Origin: Bacteroidales bacterium
Lineage (GTDB): Bacteria; Bacteroidota; Bacteroidia; Bacteroidales; UBA932
Length of the DNA stretch: 41,623 bases
Assembly (NCBI GenBank): GCA_017471045.1
Contig: JAFUWZ010000003.1
Span: 1-41,623 of the forward strand
Reading direction: 5' to 3'
The translations under genes and the position numbers were made by a program. The notes beneath the pieces are model-generated. The model did no database searches. It had not been told where the DNA came from and was given only the letters and a program-made list of their open reading frames with translations. Shown piece after piece: positions 11,817-21,225 of the stretch. The stretch's first letter is position 1; every line of letters starts with the position of its first letter.

Positions 11817-11915
11817 TATATATAGGTCTTTGAAAATATTGATAGTTAGATAGTTAGGAGATGTTTGAGGAGTAAACGGTTTTCAATCGTAACTTTGTCT
11901 GTAAATCAGAGAGTT

Positions 11916-13079
11916 ATGCATAATCGATCATACGTTTTCGCTCAATTAGCATCGCATCTTGACCGGAATAAGTTCAACTATCTCGTCCGTAAGTATCAGG
12001 GTGACAGCTACATAAAAGTTTTCTCCTGCTGGAATCAGCTGAAAGTCCTTATGTTCGGTCAACTCTCACGGCGTGAAAGTCTGCGCGATTTGATCGTAGC
12101 TGTTGAGGCACATAGCGGTAAAGCTAAGTTCCTCGGTTTCGGGGACTCGGTGACCCGCAGTAACCTGGCAAAAGCGAACCAGAACAGGGACTGTCGCATC
12201 TTCGAAGAGTATGCCTTCTACATGATGGAACTCGCTCGTAATCTGAATGATACAACGATATTCAATCTTGGCGGAACGGTCTATGCCTTCGATTCTACAA
12301 CCGTCGAACTCTGCCTTGCAGTCTTCTGCTGGGCGAAGTTCCGCAGGAAGAAAGGCGGGATAAAGATCCATACTCTTTACGATGTTGAAGCCCAAGTGCC
12401 GGCGTTTTTCCATATTACGACAGCGTCCGTCCATGACTCCCAGGCGATGAAGGAAATACCGGTTGAGTCCGGTTCCTACAACATCTTTGACCGTGCGTAC
12501 AACTTCTTTGCGCAGCTCTATCGGTTCCATTGTGCCGGGGCTTTCTTCGTGGTGAGAGCCAAGAAGAACCTCCAGTACAAGGCGGTCAAATGGAAGAGAA
12601 GGATGCCCCAAAACGTGTTGTCGGACTCCATCATCGAGTTCACTACGTACAAGAGTCACAACGATTATCCGGTGCAACTCCGGCGTGTTGAATACTACGA
12701 TGAGGAGCAGGACCGACACTTTGTTTTCTTGACTAATGCAATGGAAACCACCGCTTTAGAAGTAGCGCTCCTTTACAAGAACCGTTGGTCCGTAGAGCTG
12801 TTCTTCAAGTGGGTGAAGCAGCATCTGAAAATCAAGAAGTTCTGGGGAGACTCCGAAAACGCAGTCCGCATCCAGATCTACACCGCAATCATCTCATACT
12901 GTTTGGTAGCCATTGTTCACCACAAGATGGAACTCAAGATGTCGGTCTACAACACGCTCCAGGTACTGGGAATCTCGCTCACGGATACGACTCCTCTTGA
13001 AGACCTCTTCAACAAATCTAACCTCAATATTGACAAAGAACTTGACGGGTTCTATGAACCCACGTTATTTGATGTTTAA
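11916..13079 (+). CDS. IS4-family transposase
   Basis: 387 residues from the ATG at 11916. The N-terminal region (FAQLASHLDRNKFNYLVRKY) is of the DUF4372 kind that precedes many Bacteroidota IS4 transposases. The DDE catalytic core is intact: first Asp in VYAFDSTTVEL, second in YNIFDRAYNFF, and the YREK signature in YKNRWSVELFFKWVK. It performs cut-and-paste transposition. A longer frame from a TTG at 11865 exists, but the DUF4372-like start MHNRSYVFAQL at 11916 fits better. The gene ends 17 bases before the right inverted repeat. Confidence 0.92.
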   Translation: MHNRSYVFAQLASHLDRNKFNYLVRKYQGDSYIKVFSCWNQLKVLMFGQLSRRESLRDLIVAVEAHSGKAKFLGFGDSVTRSNLAKANQNRDCRIFEEYAFYMMELARNLNDTTIFNLGGTVYAFDSTTVELCLAVFCWAKFRRKKGGIKIHTLYDVEAQVPAFFHITTASVHDSQAMKEIPVESGSYNIFDRAYNFFAQLYRFHCAGAFFVVRAKKNLQYKAVKWKRRMPQNVLSDSIIEFTTYKSHNDYPVQLRRVEYYDEEQDRHFVFLTNAMETTALEVALLYKNRWSVELFFKWVKQHLKIKKFWGDSENAVRIQIYTAIISYCLVAIVHHKMELKMSVYNTLQVLGISLTDTTPLEDLFNKSNLNIDKELDGFYEPTLFDV

Positions 13080-13226: not shown

Positions 13227-14054
13227 TTAATAGAGTTTTCCTTTATGCTTTAGTGATTCGCGGTATTCTGTGGGAGAACGACCCAGGACGCGTTTGACAT
13301 ATCGCGAAAAGGCCGGTAACGATGAAAACTTCATTCTCTCCGCAATGTCCGTAAATGGGACATCTTTGGCCGATAATTCTTTTCGAAGTAAACGAGCAGC
13401 GTAATAATCTATCCAGTCACTATCTGGACGGCCAGTGACCTGATTGCTGAGCTCGGTAAGGTATTTAGGCGTTAATTCCATCATTTTCGCGTATGATGCG
13501 ACATTGCGTTTCTCTCCACAATCGTGCTGGGCCTCATACAGGAAATCGCTAAAATGTTTCAAGGGTAGATCGGAATTGTCTGTAACCAGGACTGTTCGCT
13601 CAACGATACACCAGATATCGTAAAGTATGACGCGCAGCAGATTACCGATAATCTCTTCTTCGAAGACTATCTGGGGATATTCGAGGCGATGGCTGATCTG
13701 CATGAAGACACTCCCGACATGTTCCTGTTCTTCAAAATCAACATCCTCCAAGTGCAGAACGGGATGTGTTTTGAGGTACTTGAAACCAGGGACGTCCCAT
13801 GCTGTTTCCGCCTTCACATCCTCGGAGAAAGAAATACTGTCATATCTCTTTGATCTGGGCCACACGACAAAGTCCCATTCCTTTGCCTCAATCTCTTTAT
13901 TCGATTGATGGAAACAGACTCGTTCCTTCTGGCAAAGCAGATAGAAGTTGTAATGTCCTCTGAACTGACTGAAGTCAACAGAATCCTTCGGGATATTGTA
14001 AAACAAGTAGTCTTTCAGGGCATATAATCGTCTACATACGAAAATATAAGCCAT
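13227..14054 (-). CDS. AraC-family transcriptional regulator
   Basis: 275 residues. The N-terminal 160 residues would form the sensor domain (cupin-like; HYNFYLLCQKERVCFHQS, EWDFVVWPRS). The C-terminal ~95 residues carry the two AraC helix-turn-helix motifs: NVASYAKMMELTPKYLTEL and DIAERMKFSSLPAFSRYVKR, ending LGRSPTEYRESL. It should bind DNA as a ligand-responsive activator; the target is unknown. Its composition is AT-richer than the host genes and it lies in the variable region between the IS and the DUF4143 ATPase. No gene in the immediate neighbourhood is an obvious target. Confidence 0.88.
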   Translation of the reverse strand: MAYIFVCRRLYALKDYLFYNIPKDSVDFSQFRGHYNFYLLCQKERVCFHQSNKEIEAKEWDFVVWPRSKRYDSISFSEDVKAETAWDVPGFKYLKTHPVLHLEDVDFEEQEHVGSVFMQISHRLEYPQIVFEEEIIGNLLRVILYDIWCIVERTVLVTDNSDLPLKHFSDFLYEAQHDCGEKRNVASYAKMMELTPKYLTELSNQVTGRPDSDWIDYYAARLLRKELSAKDVPFTDIAERMKFSSLPAFSRYVKRVLGRSPTEYRESLKHKGKLY

Positions 14055-14155
14055 TTATTTGAATCAGAAAATAGTTAAGCCAAAGTGCCCGCAGTCGAAT
14101 AAAGGGAAGAGGGCAATACACCTTTCCGCGATTTTTGGCAGCCAACCACATCAAC

Positions 14156-14221
14156 ATTTTGAGAATATTGCGAAAAACGGCTAAAAATATTTTGAGGATT
14201 TTGCGGAGGCTCTGTCTATCT
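14156..14221 (+). repeat. Two 33-bp tandem repeat units (first set)
   Basis: Units start at 14156 (ATTTTGAGAATATTGCG) and 14189 (ATTTTGAGGATTTTGCG), exactly 33 bp apart. In the frame shared with the downstream ATPase they would read ILRILRKTAKN then ILRILRRLCLS. That frame is open from 14135 to a TAG at 14324. The short open frame itself is probably not a gene. Confidence 0.7.
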
Positions 14222-14293
14222 GATAGTTACAAAGCAAAATATTCCTCCCCTGAACGATGTCCGAGGAAGGTCTTGCCAATCATTATCTTTCAT

Positions 14294-14330
14294 TTTGCTA
14301 CATTTTCATCGCCGGTGAAAACGTAGCAAA
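14294..14330. repeat. 15-bp inverted repeat between the two repeat sets
   Basis: TTTGCTACATTTTCA pairs with TGAAAACGTAGCAAA (one mismatch) around a 7-base centre. It carries the TAG that closes the upstream frame, ends 5 bp before the second 33-bp set, and has no T-run typical of a terminator. Confidence 0.7.
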
Positions 14331-14335
14331 TCGGC

Positions 14336-14467
14336 AAAGTCGTTCCAAAAAATGCGCCGGAATGCTTAAAAGTCGTTGAAAAAACTACGGCAAACCACCA
14401 GAAAGTCGTTAGAAAAAATGCGCCAGAATGCAGGAAAGTCGTTAGAAAAATGTATATTTGTTGCCAG
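14336..14467 (+). repeat. Four 33-bp tandem repeat units upstream of the DUF4143 ATPase
   Basis: AAAGTCGTT occurs at 14336, 14369, 14402 and 14435, exactly 33 bp apart each time. Units 1 and 3 match at 27 of 33 positions (both contain AAAAAATGCGCC and GAATGC). Units 2 and 4 share only the first half. All are in frame with the ATPase and encode an 11-residue motif (KVVRKNAPECR) with no stop from 14327 onward. Unit 4 contains a -7-like box. The rest of the 14055-14482 gap holds the first repeat pair and the inverted repeat; I see nothing else in it. Confidence 0.85.
14453..14460 (+). promoter_or_regulatory. -7-like box within the last 33-bp repeat
   Basis: TATATTTG matches TAnnTTTG, 22 bases before the ATG at 14483. 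No convincing -33 box; the repeats occupy that position. Confidence 0.5.
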
Positions 14468-14482
14468 ATAATACGTCATAAC

Positions 14483-15916
14483 ATGCTGAAAAGGAAGATT
14501 GAAGACACCCTGACCAAGTGGAAAAACAAAACGGGACACAAGCCCTTAGTGATAATGGGCATCCGTCAGTGCGGAAAGACATTCATCGCGCAACATTTCG
14601 CTGCAGAGAACTACAAGAGTGTCGTCTATATGAACTTCATCAAAGAACCGGAACGCATTAATGCGTTTGCCGGCTCGAAGGACGTGGACAAGATTCTGCT
14701 CAATCTTTCCGCCCAGATTCAAGGCGTCAAGTTTATCCCGGGAGAAACCTGTCTCATCTTCGATGAAATCCAGGAGTGTCCGGAAGCCAGAACTTCGCTC
14801 AAATTCTTCAAGGAGGATGGGCGTTTTGATGTGATTGCCACAGGCTCACTGCTGGGAGTCCAAGGCTACGGTGACGAGCTAAGGAAAAGACGCCGTAAGT
14901 TGATTCGCAATGAGGATTTGGGGATCAACTCTGTCCCTGTCGGTAGCGAAGAGATTCTTGAAATGTATCCGCTGGACTTCGAGGAGTTTTTATGGGCAAA
15001 CGGGGTGAACCCGGAAGTCATTGAGGCTCTCAGGATATTATATAACGAAGAAACACCTGTTCCTGCAGGGATACATGTGGCCATGAAGAATTATTTGAAT
15101 CTTTATGTTGCCATAGGCGGTCTTCCCGCTCCTGTCAACGCTTTCCTGGCCACCAACAATATGAATGCTGTTAGCGAAGAGTACCAGGCTATTTTGAAGG
15201 AGTACCGCGATGATATGATCAAGTATGCTCCGGACAAGGATAAGCCACACATCCGGGAATGTTTCAACTCCATTCCCAAACAACTCGCCAAGGAGAATAA
15301 AAAGTTCCAATATAGCAAGGTAAAACCAGGCGGACGCGGAGAAGCTTTTGCCGGATCTCTTCAGTGGCTGGAAGATGCCGGGATTATCTGCCGGTGCTAT
15401 AATACCGACATCACGGGTCTCCCGATGGAAGGAAACGCAAAGGACAACGTCTTCAAGGTGTACACAGCAGATATTGGCCTTCTCATTGAAATGCTTTCTC
15501 CAGGAACACGTGCAGACATCCTTCAAGGCAATCTTGGTGGCTTCAAAGGAGCCATCTTCGAGAACCTTATGGCCGACACGCTTCATAAGAAACGTCAGAA
15601 TTTATACTACTTCCAAAAGGATTCAGGGCTTGAACTGGACTTCCTTGTCCGCATGAAAGGCGAATGTGTGCCGCTTGAAGTCAAAGCAAGGACATCTCAG
15701 GCGAAAAGTGCTCAGACAGTCTTAAAGCATCCGGACAAATATGGTGTAAAGCATATCATCAAATTCGGCGACTATAATGTTGGTCGGGAAGGTCAATTGC
15801 TGACGCTCCCTTCTTATATGCAGTTCCTCCTGGATCTCGAGCCAGAAGAGATTGTTCTCGAGCCCATAGACGTAGACGCTGTGAATGCTCTGGCAGAAGA
15901 AATCTTGAATCATTAA
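14483..15916 (+). CDS. AAA+ ATPase with DUF4143 C-terminal domain
   Basis: 477 residues. The N-terminal P-loop ATPase has Walker A MGIRQCGKTF (about 25-34) and Walker B CLIFDEIQECP (Asp95-Glu96), plus a sensor-like ATGSLLG. The C-terminal DUF4143 part has GGFKGAIFENLMADTL and FQKDSGLELDFLV...PLEVKA, the spacing of a PD-(D/E)xK-like nuclease fold. Such proteins are common and often variable in Bacteroidota genomes; their role is unsettled, with defence or mobile-element functions suggested. I start at MLKRKIEDTL (14483), where family similarity begins. The frame stays open through the 33-bp repeats with an ATG at 14450, so a longer N-terminus is possible. It is AT-richer than host genes and stands alone. 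Confidence 0.85.
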   Translation: MLKRKIEDTLTKWKNKTGHKPLVIMGIRQCGKTFIAQHFAAENYKSVVYMNFIKEPERINAFAGSKDVDKILLNLSAQIQGVKFIPGETCLIFDEIQECPEARTSLKFFKEDGRFDVIATGSLLGVQGYGDELRKRRRKLIRNEDLGINSVPVGSEEILEMYPLDFEEFLWANGVNPEVIEALRILYNEETPVPAGIHVAMKNYLNLYVAIGGLPAPVNAFLATNNMNAVSEEYQAILKEYRDDMIKYAPDKDKPHIRECFNSIPKQLAKENKKFQYSKVKPGGRGEAFAGSLQWLEDAGIICRCYNTDITGLPMEGNAKDNVFKVYTADIGLLIEMLSPGTRADILQGNLGGFKGAIFENLMADTLHKKRQNLYYFQKDSGLELDFLVRMKGECVPLEVKARTSQAKSAQTVLKHPDKYGVKHIIKFGDYNVGREGQLLTLPSYMQFLLDLEPEEIVLEPIDVDAVNALAEEILNH

Positions 15917-16348: not shown

Positions 16349-17272
16349 TCAGCGGAGCCCCTTGAAAACCTGGTTGATGACCTTTTTCTTCTGGTCCAAG
16401 TTGGGATGGACGTAGAGGTTGAGGGTTGTTCCGATGTTGGCATGGCCCAACAGGACGCTGACGGTCTTGTAATCGCAGCCGCTCTCGATACAGCGCGTTG
16501 CGAAACTGTGCCGCAGTCCATGGAACTTGATCACGGGCATTCCGAGGGACGTCATGAAACTCTTGTAGTAGAGCCGGTAGGTCTTGGGTTCGATGGGTTG
16601 GGGGCTGTTGCTGATCAGGTAGTACTCCGGATTCATCAGTTTGATCAGCGGCCGTATGATCCGCAGCAGATCTTTTGACATAGGAATCTCCCGCACGGCA
16701 TTCTGTGTCTTCGGGACCCCGATCACAAGCCGGGAGTGCTTCCCGTTCTCATCCGGCAGATATACCCTCCCCAGGGTCTTCCGGACCCAGATCACCTCGT
16801 CGGTCATGTCCAGGTCCTTCCATTGCAGGGAACAGACTTCCCCGATGCGCAGTCCCGCGGACAGGCAGATATAAATCCCCAGGTTGCGGCAGGTGAAATT
16901 GTTCTTGATGTGCTCGATGATCTTTCGGTGATCCTGTTTGCTGAGCACGGTGATTTCCCCGGGGGGCTGCTCCGAGGGGTAGCGGATGGTCCAGTCCGGC
17001 ACCGGCCAGACATCCAGCTTGGCTCCGAAACGGACGATCATTTTCAGGATCAGGACGAGTTCCCGTACGCTCTTCTGGCTGAGCCCCTCCTCCAGTTTCT
17101 TGAGGGCAAAGGTTTGGACCTTGCTTTCCTGGATGGAGGTCGCTTCTCCGAATTCCGGCAGGATGTGCTTGTTGAGGAGCAAGACATACGTCGAATAGCT
17201 GGTTGCCTTGACGTACCGTTTTTTGTCTTTTTTCCACAGGGTTGCGATTTCGCTTAGTGTTACTTCTTTCAT
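16349..17272 (-). CDS. Tyrosine-type site-specific recombinase
   Basis: 307 residues with the complete catalytic set: Arg142 in AGLRIGEVCSLQW, Lys188 in VPKTQNAVREIP, His251 and Arg254 in HGLRHSFAT, His277 in LLGHANIGTT and nucleophile Tyr287 in NLYVHPNLDQ. The N-terminal ~100 residues are a core-binding SAM-like domain. It is closer to general XerC/D-like or Firmicutes-type integrases than to the recombinase at 8475, and its gene is more GC-rich than the rest of the region. The partner site is unknown; a role in integration or inversion of the adjacent DNA is inferred. It marks the right side of the variable region. Confidence 0.9.
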   Translation of the reverse strand: MKEVTLSEIATLWKKDKKRYVKATSYSTYVLLLNKHILPEFGEATSIQESKVQTFALKKLEEGLSQKSVRELVLILKMIVRFGAKLDVWPVPDWTIRYPSEQPPGEITVLSKQDHRKIIEHIKNNFTCRNLGIYICLSAGLRIGEVCSLQWKDLDMTDEVIWVRKTLGRVYLPDENGKHSRLVIGVPKTQNAVREIPMSKDLLRIIRPLIKLMNPEYYLISNSPQPIEPKTYRLYYKSFMTSLGMPVIKFHGLRHSFATRCIESGCDYKTVSVLLGHANIGTTLNLYVHPNLDQKKKVINQVFKGLR

Positions 17273-20856: not shown

Positions 20857-21225
20857 TCAGGCCTCCTTTTTGTTTTTGTCGAGCAGGGCCTTGGCCTTTT
20901 CGGCAGCTTCAGCGACGTCTTCCTTGGCTTCAGCGTAAACTTCCTTGGCCTTGCTGGCGGCCTTGGTGGCGCCTTCCTTCGCGTCGGCGTAAACGTCCTT
21001 GGCCTTCTCGGCAGCCTTGCCATAGACGTCCTTGGCCTTGTCGGCCGCTTTGGCATAGACCTCCTTGGCCTTGCCGGCAGTCTCTATCGCTTCTTCTTTC
21101 AGTTTGCCCATGGCGGCGTCGATCTTTTCATTGGCTTTTCCGGCGGCATATTTGACCCGCTCGTCGAGGGTGACTTTTCCGTCTCCGTTGAGATCCATCG
21201 GATTCTTGACATTCTCTTCGCTCAT
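20857..21225 (-). CDS. EF-hand motif plus 11-residue helical repeat protein
   Basis: 122 residues, very rich in Ala, Lys and Glu, with no signal peptide. Residues 11-22 form a calcium-binding loop, DLNGDGKVTLDE (Asp, Asn, Asp, Lys, Thr, Glu at loop positions). The rest (about 28-120) is an amphipathic helix of imperfect 11-mers: KAKEVYAKAAD, KAKDVYGKAAE, KAKDVYADAKE, KAKEVYAEAKE. Eleven-residue repeats of this kind occur in LEA group 3 and YtxH/apolipoprotein-like proteins that bind membranes or protect against desiccation and stress. I do not know a named family for the combination. It is monocistronic: own promoter at 21257-21287 and terminator at 20787-20809. Confidence 0.7.
   Translation of the reverse strand: MSEENVKNPMDLNGDGKVTLDERVKYAAGKANEKIDAAMGKLKEEAIETAGKAKEVYAKAADKAKDVYGKAAEKAKDVYADAKEGATKAASKAKEVYAEAKEDVAEAAEKAKALLDKNKKEA

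Follow-up and report, generated by a model that had tools for sequence, protein, structure and literature searches.

Autoregulatory operators of toxin-antitoxin, partition and restriction (C-protein) genes consist of repeated, system-specific sites inside the promoter of the genes they control. Iterons with their Rep proteins and ORB sites with Orc1/Cdc6 likewise form arrays beside genes for DNA-binding initiators, some of them AAA+ proteins; the iteron period is about 20-22 bp, about two helical turns, beside the rep gene. We analyzed a 41,623-nucleotide stretch of Bacteroidales DNA (the window), in which a repeat array lies upstream of a gene for a DUF4143 ATPase. The array resembles the toxin-antitoxin, partition and C-protein operators in having repeated conserved sites in its own promoter region, with an apparent specificity that varies with the protein, but differs from them in that its direct repeats, usually three to five of them, recur every 32-33 bp and in that the candidate binder is an AAA ATPase with a nuclease-type domain. 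It adjoins the gene of an AAA-type protein, much as iterons and ORB sites adjoin those of initiators; unlike the repeats of an iteron replicon, however, its 32-33-bp units are tied to a promoter. The alternation of repeat and variable spacer at a roughly constant length recalls CRISPR, except that the repeats are degenerate rather than near-identical, usually number three to five, have cores of half a unit and are bound to a promoter.

The ATPase is of the PDC-S01 type, a PADLOC phage-defence candidate in which an ATPase is fused to a PD-(D/E)XK-type domain. This type is counted among the commonest defence candidates of bacteria and archaea (PMC12988326, PMC13356809), with 29,494 bacterial and 9,986 archaeal systems and with validation still pending for most such candidates (PMC12988326), and it is listed with the most abundant rumen systems (PMC13356809). 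The excerpts consulted of PMC12988326 and PMC13356809 make no mention of an operator, of repeats or of what PDC-S01 ATPases bind. An excerpt of a third paper tables the AAA_14/DUF4143 gene TT_P0211 of Thermus thermophilus under plasmid-dependent expression changes, with a value of 6.6 (PMC4406477). Full-text searches of open PubMed Central papers found no description of the arrays, which is no proof of absence. A self-regulated arrangement is known in principle; the apparent novelty is its presence as a hallmark of this large defence-candidate family, for which it offers a candidate ligand.

The window array and its ATPase gene

A sequence-only reading of the window had reported four repeats at a 33-bp spacing, and this was confirmed. 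The sequence AAAGTCGTT occurs at 14336, 14369, 14402 and 14435, in steps of exactly 33 bp (span 14336-14443), and forms the head of the core AAAGTCGTTnnAAAAA in each of the four units (Table 1). None of 500 Markov shuffles reached the self-similarity score of this array at any period from 15 to 70 bp, and the units are degenerate, with 69-84% identity to the reference copy. Tandem Repeats Finder delimited the array as 14336-14450 (period 33, 3.5 copies, score 116), the fourth of its 25 rows in the window by score. The three higher rows overlap each other at 20889-21080, where overlapping 54-bp and 33-bp tandem repeats, the top scorers of the window, perhaps lie inside a gene for a repetitive protein.

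Table 1. Features upstream of and including the ATPase gene (window coordinates)
Feature	Position	Strand	Remark
Set 2 unit 1, ATTTTGAGAATATTGCG	14156..14172	+	core differs from four-copy array
Set 2 unit 2, ATTTTGAGGATTTTGCG	14189..14205	+	core differs from four-copy array
Hairpin directly 5' of array	14294..14330	.	folding energy compared with shuffles
Array unit 1, core AAAGTCGTTCCAAAAA	14336..14351	+	33-bp array
Array unit 2, core AAAGTCGTTGAAAAAA	14369..14384	+	33-bp array
Array unit 3, core AAAGTCGTTAGAAAAA	14402..14417	+	33-bp array
Array unit 4, core AAAGTCGTTAGAAAAA	14435..14450	+	ends 2 bp 5' of promoter-like element
In-frame extension from ATG 14450	14450..14482	+	contains -7 element; probably untranslated as part of the ATPase
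-7-type promoter element, TATATTTG	14453..14460	+	fits TAnnTTTG; 30 bp before ATG 14483
DUF4143/AAA_14 ATPase, PDC-S01 type, 477 aa from conserved start	14483..15916	+	domain and profile matches

The exact core is private to this locus in the 2,617,858-base genome. The 14-letter core AGTCGTTNNAAAAA, at zero mismatches, was found only at the four array sites, as was the exact core AGTCGTTnnAAAAA, which had one-mismatch matches at five other places. A regulon reading was rejected, the exact core being without a further site in the host genome. The 9-mer AAAGTCGTT was not in excess genome-wide (12 extra sites, 16 in total, compared to 32 for the reversed control pattern), nor did two broad core patterns exceed their control, the second being poorly placed, with the array units themselves needing 3 mismatches. 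Over 61 genomes an exact core-plus-promoter pattern matched the window alone; the cores diverge. A known structured RNA family was also rejected for the array region, Rfam giving 0 matches up to E 1 over 13900-14700.

The sequence-only reading had further placed both sets of repeats in the frame of the ATPase, interrupted by a TAG inside an inverted repeat. This is correct: the frame is open over 14336-14482 and is ended by the TAG at 14324-14326, which lies inside a stable hairpin. The shared frame follows from 33 being 3 x 11 and carries no further information. As to the start of the protein, homology among the matches listed mostly begins at about residue 9-15 of the reading from 14450, i.e. 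near ATG 14483. In the closest relatives the alignment to the longer reading starts at residue 1 (L112) and residue 5 (L113), as expected if the promoter DNA itself were conserved. Since ATG 14450 falls in the region of the promoter-like TATATTTG and the conserved protein starts near 14483, the repeats probably lie upstream of the ATPase gene and precede it, rather than being part of its leader.

The protein carries the Pfam domains PF13173 (AAA_14, E 5.9e-23) and PF13635 (DUF4143, E 4.7e-29). Its 488-aa reading matches the PADLOC profiles PDLC04786 (E 1.3e-146), PDLC04792 and PDLC04788 from residue 12 to 457-473, and the PDC-S01 profile match covers nearly the whole ATPase. Residues G26, G31, K32, D94, E95, E399 and K401 are invariant in 72 aligned homologues, and E384 is found in at least 90%. 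The ATPase retains these residues, which are the ones predicted to bind nucleotide and to form a PD-(D/E)xK-type site. Comparison with solved structures gave no match beyond weak AAA ones, to midasin, and a Pfam search of a 77-residue segment of the ATPase found no separate DNA-binding domain.

Extent and anatomy of the array across the family

Homologues came from a named genome collection and from three taxonomic levels: the order (295 genomes, 161 with a match), the family (199, 128 with a match) and the class (149, 64 with a match). The loci are best matches, at most 30 each from order, family and class together with the best 80 of 446 relatives in the named collection; they include near-duplicates (e.g. 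L006/L007, L009/L010, L116-L118) and are mostly from metagenome assemblies, in which the taxon label may be wrong. A script set the start codon of each gene close to the conserved start. The 141 usable upstream regions represent 140 distinct ones, with the window counted twice (L001, L002).

Periodicity upstream of DUF4143 ATPases across relatives had been set beforehand as the check on the window array, and it was borne out. Among the best-match loci, the best self-similarity (score of at least 15) fell at 32 or 33 bp in 97/141 upstream regions and at 64-66 bp in 8/141, compared to Markov shuffles of the same regions, of which 4/141 reached a score of 15 and none did so at 32/33 bp. A 32/33-bp band score of at least 12 within 350 bp upstream was recorded for 85% of the 140 best-match ATPases vs 2.8% of 355 neighbouring genes, and at the 21/22, 27/28, 37/38 and 42/43-bp bands the ATPase upstream regions were no different from these 355 controls. 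The signal is confined to one region: it was present in the first 350 bp upstream in 84.8% of 151 cases, further upstream in 2.7% of 147, inside the gene in 0.6% of 154 and downstream in 3.4% of 145. Terminal repeats are not supported by the last of these figures, the arrays not being in excess downstream. The earlier idea of a recombination substrate found no support either, as the arrays keep to the first 350 bp upstream with no downstream excess, and as the upstream regions of a Bacteroides plasmid family are the same in five records, though these are perhaps just recent copies.

A looser unit finder with an allowed range of 31-34 bp detected three or more units in 133/159 best-match homologues and in 20/355 control genes, at spacings of 33 (190), 32 (120), 31 (8) and 34 bp (2). 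In a separate later set of 80 loci, reduced to 79 by dropping L279 at a contig end, three or more units were found in 48/79 genes. Homologues without a three-unit array thus number 26/159 in the first set and 31/79 in the second.

Arrays occur under the record labels Bacteroidota, Bacillota groups, Treponema, Desulfovibrio piger, Coriobacteriia and Enterorhabdus, and weakly in one archaeon. Short-form DUF4143 ATPases of Bacteroidota, taken as the best scorers against PF13635, had their single best period at 32/33 bp in 0/29 readable loci (30 fetched), with the start set at the first ORF start and in a few cases perhaps too far upstream. On a tree of 236 proteins, array vs no array changed 17 times among 205 labelled genes, compared to a minimum of 40 in 200 label shuffles. 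The array is restricted to one subfamily of DUF4143 ATPases, and it could serve as a mark to tell this PDC-S01-type subfamily from the short-form proteins.

Mobile elements carry the arrangement too. Homologues were found on 59/72,556 plasmid records and 12/50,697 phage-collection records. Among cultured strains, Segatella copri DSM 18205 carries a plasmid with a clear array of three 33-bp units (score 34), and Ruminococcus albus 7 one, pRUMAL01, with a weaker 32-bp array (score 12). In the Bacteroides plasmid family, TATATTTG lies between two cores 66 bp apart, and the upstream regions of the five records differ by 0-2 of 356 bases. One locus deposited as phage (L309, MT836311.1 8630-11211) has a 55%-identical ATPase near a contig end with its own 33-bp array. 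Two further loci are unusual in their layout: at about 4383-4475 of L085 a three-unit 32-bp array of the CCCTGTAAAAAAATGATG type stands 5' of a non-ATPase ORF, possibly as an orphan left by a lost ATPase, and in L149 (G221, contig 4) two TTGCAAAAAGTTACT blocks of three and four units lie upstream of one ATPase.

Each unit consists of a conserved core (median 19.5 bp, interquartile range 16-22, in 112 strong arrays, where strong means a score of at least 20) and a free spacer. The cores vary from clade to clade, examples being AAAGTCGTTTGAAAAAGTG, TTGCAAAAAGTTACT, GGAAAAATGTGGGA and AACCTCCGAAAATCTGCA. An A4 or T4 tract is present in every unit of 125/148 strong arrays vs 22/148 with shuffled upstream regions. 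In one pair, the window and its 95%-identical homologue L112, the cores agree at 93% of 84 positions and the spacers at 59% of 41, while the DNA upstream of the array is at the chance level (27% identity over 108 positions), suggesting that array and gene are kept together. The units of L005, L046 and L143 are near-identical, spacers included, as expected if arrays grow by duplication with the spacers drifting later; the growth may be by slippage.

Promoter position, candidate binder and rival readings

The arrays lie on or close to promoter-like elements, which were judged by consensus alone; the Bacteroidota loci were hand-picked from record titles and kinship. The sequence TAnnTTTG, the Bacteroidota -7 promoter consensus, was present within 90 bp of the start codon in 51/70 strong Bacteroidota arrays vs 23/133 control genes, at a median distance of 31 bp (interquartile range 29.5-33). 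Its first base falls inside the core or at most 2 bp past the core end in 25 of the 51, 3-10 bp past it in 23 and elsewhere in 3. In a second Bacteroidota layout the -7 element is located between two cores, placing the last core in the untranslated leader. For other phyla, TTGnnn-N16-18-TAnnnT was found in or after the array in 24/34 genes listed, with no control set. Also with no control set, the last core fills the gap between -35-like and -10-like elements in L073, L076, L097, L070, L078 and L087, and carries the -35-like element in L039, L043 and L049. The array ends just 5' of a -35-like element in L058, L062, L063, L107 and the second gene of L070. Occupied cores would bar polymerase in many of these promoters, and activation is possible in others. 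Position, period, the conservation of the cores and their nearness to the promoter lend strong support to the phased operators proposed in the sequence-only reading.

Paralogues within one genome share the period but mostly differ in their cores (four genomes, 20 loci, of which a few share a core type and two, L152 and L160, have weak arrays), making a single shared host factor unlikely. Core distance followed protein distance with a Mantel r of 0.594 (largest of 1000 permutations 0.114, n=110, two of the 112 strong arrays having been removed by a filter on internal stops and short translations), and with an r of 0.773 in the separate set (largest of 500 permutations 0.245, n=36 of 79). This covariation fits recognition by the ATPase itself and could also reflect plain joint inheritance. 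A winged-helix-like segment (residues 256-315, with boundaries chosen after looking) was the best predictor of the core in the first and pooled sets but failed in the separate set (beta -0.004, n=36). It was dropped as a recognition domain, and none is claimed here. A column-wise test for specificity positions was marginal (p 0.04-0.07).

Relatives lacking a three-unit array often have another candidate site. A strong inverted repeat was found at most 100 bp upstream of the start in 26/57 of these homologues, whereas the rate was 5.4% in the 148 array genes, 9.3% in the 355 controls and 8.8% in the 57 shuffles. Some of the arms resemble array cores, e.g. TGTTCCGAAAAATCA facing its own complement, and on the tree array vs inverted repeat changed 6 times, with a minimum of 20 in 200 shuffles. 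The inverted repeat is a candidate alternative operator.

On balance, we favor the reading that the array is a helically phased autoregulatory operator, most likely bound by the ATPase itself and probably repressive. Each unit would span about three DNA turns and offer one binding core, the clade-specific part that usually contains an A-tract, followed by a free spacer, so that all units would face the same side of the helix, the last of them reaching the promoter of the gene itself. The ATPase would bind its own cores, cooperatively along the array, and exclude RNA polymerase from the promoter, thereby keeping its own level low; repression would be released once the ATPase is drawn off, e.g. 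by invading DNA during infection or by a change of nucleotide state. If so, the cognate DNA site is readable beside each gene and provides a biochemical handle on which DNA to offer each protein. It would also predict orthogonal paralogues within one cell and put the gene under its own control. What was observed is the array with its place, period, conserved cores and nearness to promoter-like elements, its covariation with the protein and its restriction to one subfamily; that the ATPase binds, does so cooperatively, represses rather than activates and is released by a signal is inferred.

Against a repressive operator, roughly every second -7 element is found a few bases past a core, and some Bacillota arrays end just before the -35 element. 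Both observations would suit an activating operator, on whose phased sites the ATPase or another protein would oligomerise and then recruit polymerase: the place just before a -35 element is the one used by activators, and it is there that the array stops in the five Bacillota genes listed above, and in Bacteroidota 23 of the 51 elements start 3-10 bp beyond a core. Exclusion nevertheless fits better than activation, since the -7 element is inside or within 2 bp of a core in 25/51 arrays and an extra core separates the promoter from the start codon in L034, L035, L080, L102, L134, L025 and L099; we consider activation unlikely. Binding by an unrelated regulator or a nucleoid protein instead of the ATPase is rather improbable. 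The A4/T4 tracts in every unit of most strong arrays could attract a nucleoid protein or bend the DNA, but paralogue cores mostly differ within a genome and cores track protein kinship across phyla.

A mainly non-transcriptional platform, either iteron- or centromere-like or serving to store the ATPase/nuclease or to assemble it into a filament, would account for a repeat array adjoining an AAA ATPase gene, for the diversified cores and for the homologues on plasmid and phage-collection records. We consider it quite improbable, as the position of the array goes with that of promoter-like elements and of the start codon and as inverted repeats occupy the same place in many relatives without an array. 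The repeated leader peptide that the sequence-only reading had also offered has the window frame in its favor, open from 14336 into the ATPase. Of the 148 strong arrays, however, 75 are spaced at 33 bp throughout and 34 at 32 bp, with mixed spacing in 39, and the ATPase frame is open from the first core to the start in 16/148, with a mean of 18.0 for the other two frames. A repeat length that drifts from 33 bp and a frame that is not kept were the refuting condition named in the sequence-only reading, and by it the purely 32-bp and mixed arrays, together with the chance-level openness, rule out a leader peptide, to which we give next to no probability, and the open frame of the window is best taken as coincidence.

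The autoregulatory operator and the storage of the nuclease might also be joined, in a scheme that we regard as tentative and doubtful. PD-(D/E)xK ATPases across phyla would each have a private, diversifying 32-33-bp address, on which cooperative assembly would keep the gene silent and the nuclease stored and inactive, and leaving the address, e.g. when invading DNA competes for the protein, would switch both on together. Defence would then need a single gene, with the array acting as its sensor half, and the core would predict the specificity of each member.

Other features near the window locus

A second pair of units 33 bp apart, also noted in the sequence-only reading, proved to be real. 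This set 2 is ATTTTGAGRATWTTGCG at 14156 and 14189, two units and weaker than the four-copy set; its score was reached by 0/2000 shuffles at 32/33 bp and by 1/300 at any period from 15 to 70 bp. Its core was not found in the other 58 of the 59 family genomes searched. Set 2 (14156-14205) is located 100-150 bp upstream of a divergent gene on the minus strand (13227-14054), presumably AraC-like from its sequence, and may be what is left of another array or a site used by the AraC-like regulator.

The hairpin between set 2 and the array has a folding energy of -18.4 kcal/mol for 14285-14345 (z -4.2), with 0/200 shuffles equally stable, and is possibly a terminator or an insulator. Near the ATPase gene lie two ORFs that we take to be transposase-like (11865-13079) and tyrosine-recombinase-like (16349-17272), which suggests a mobile neighbourhood.
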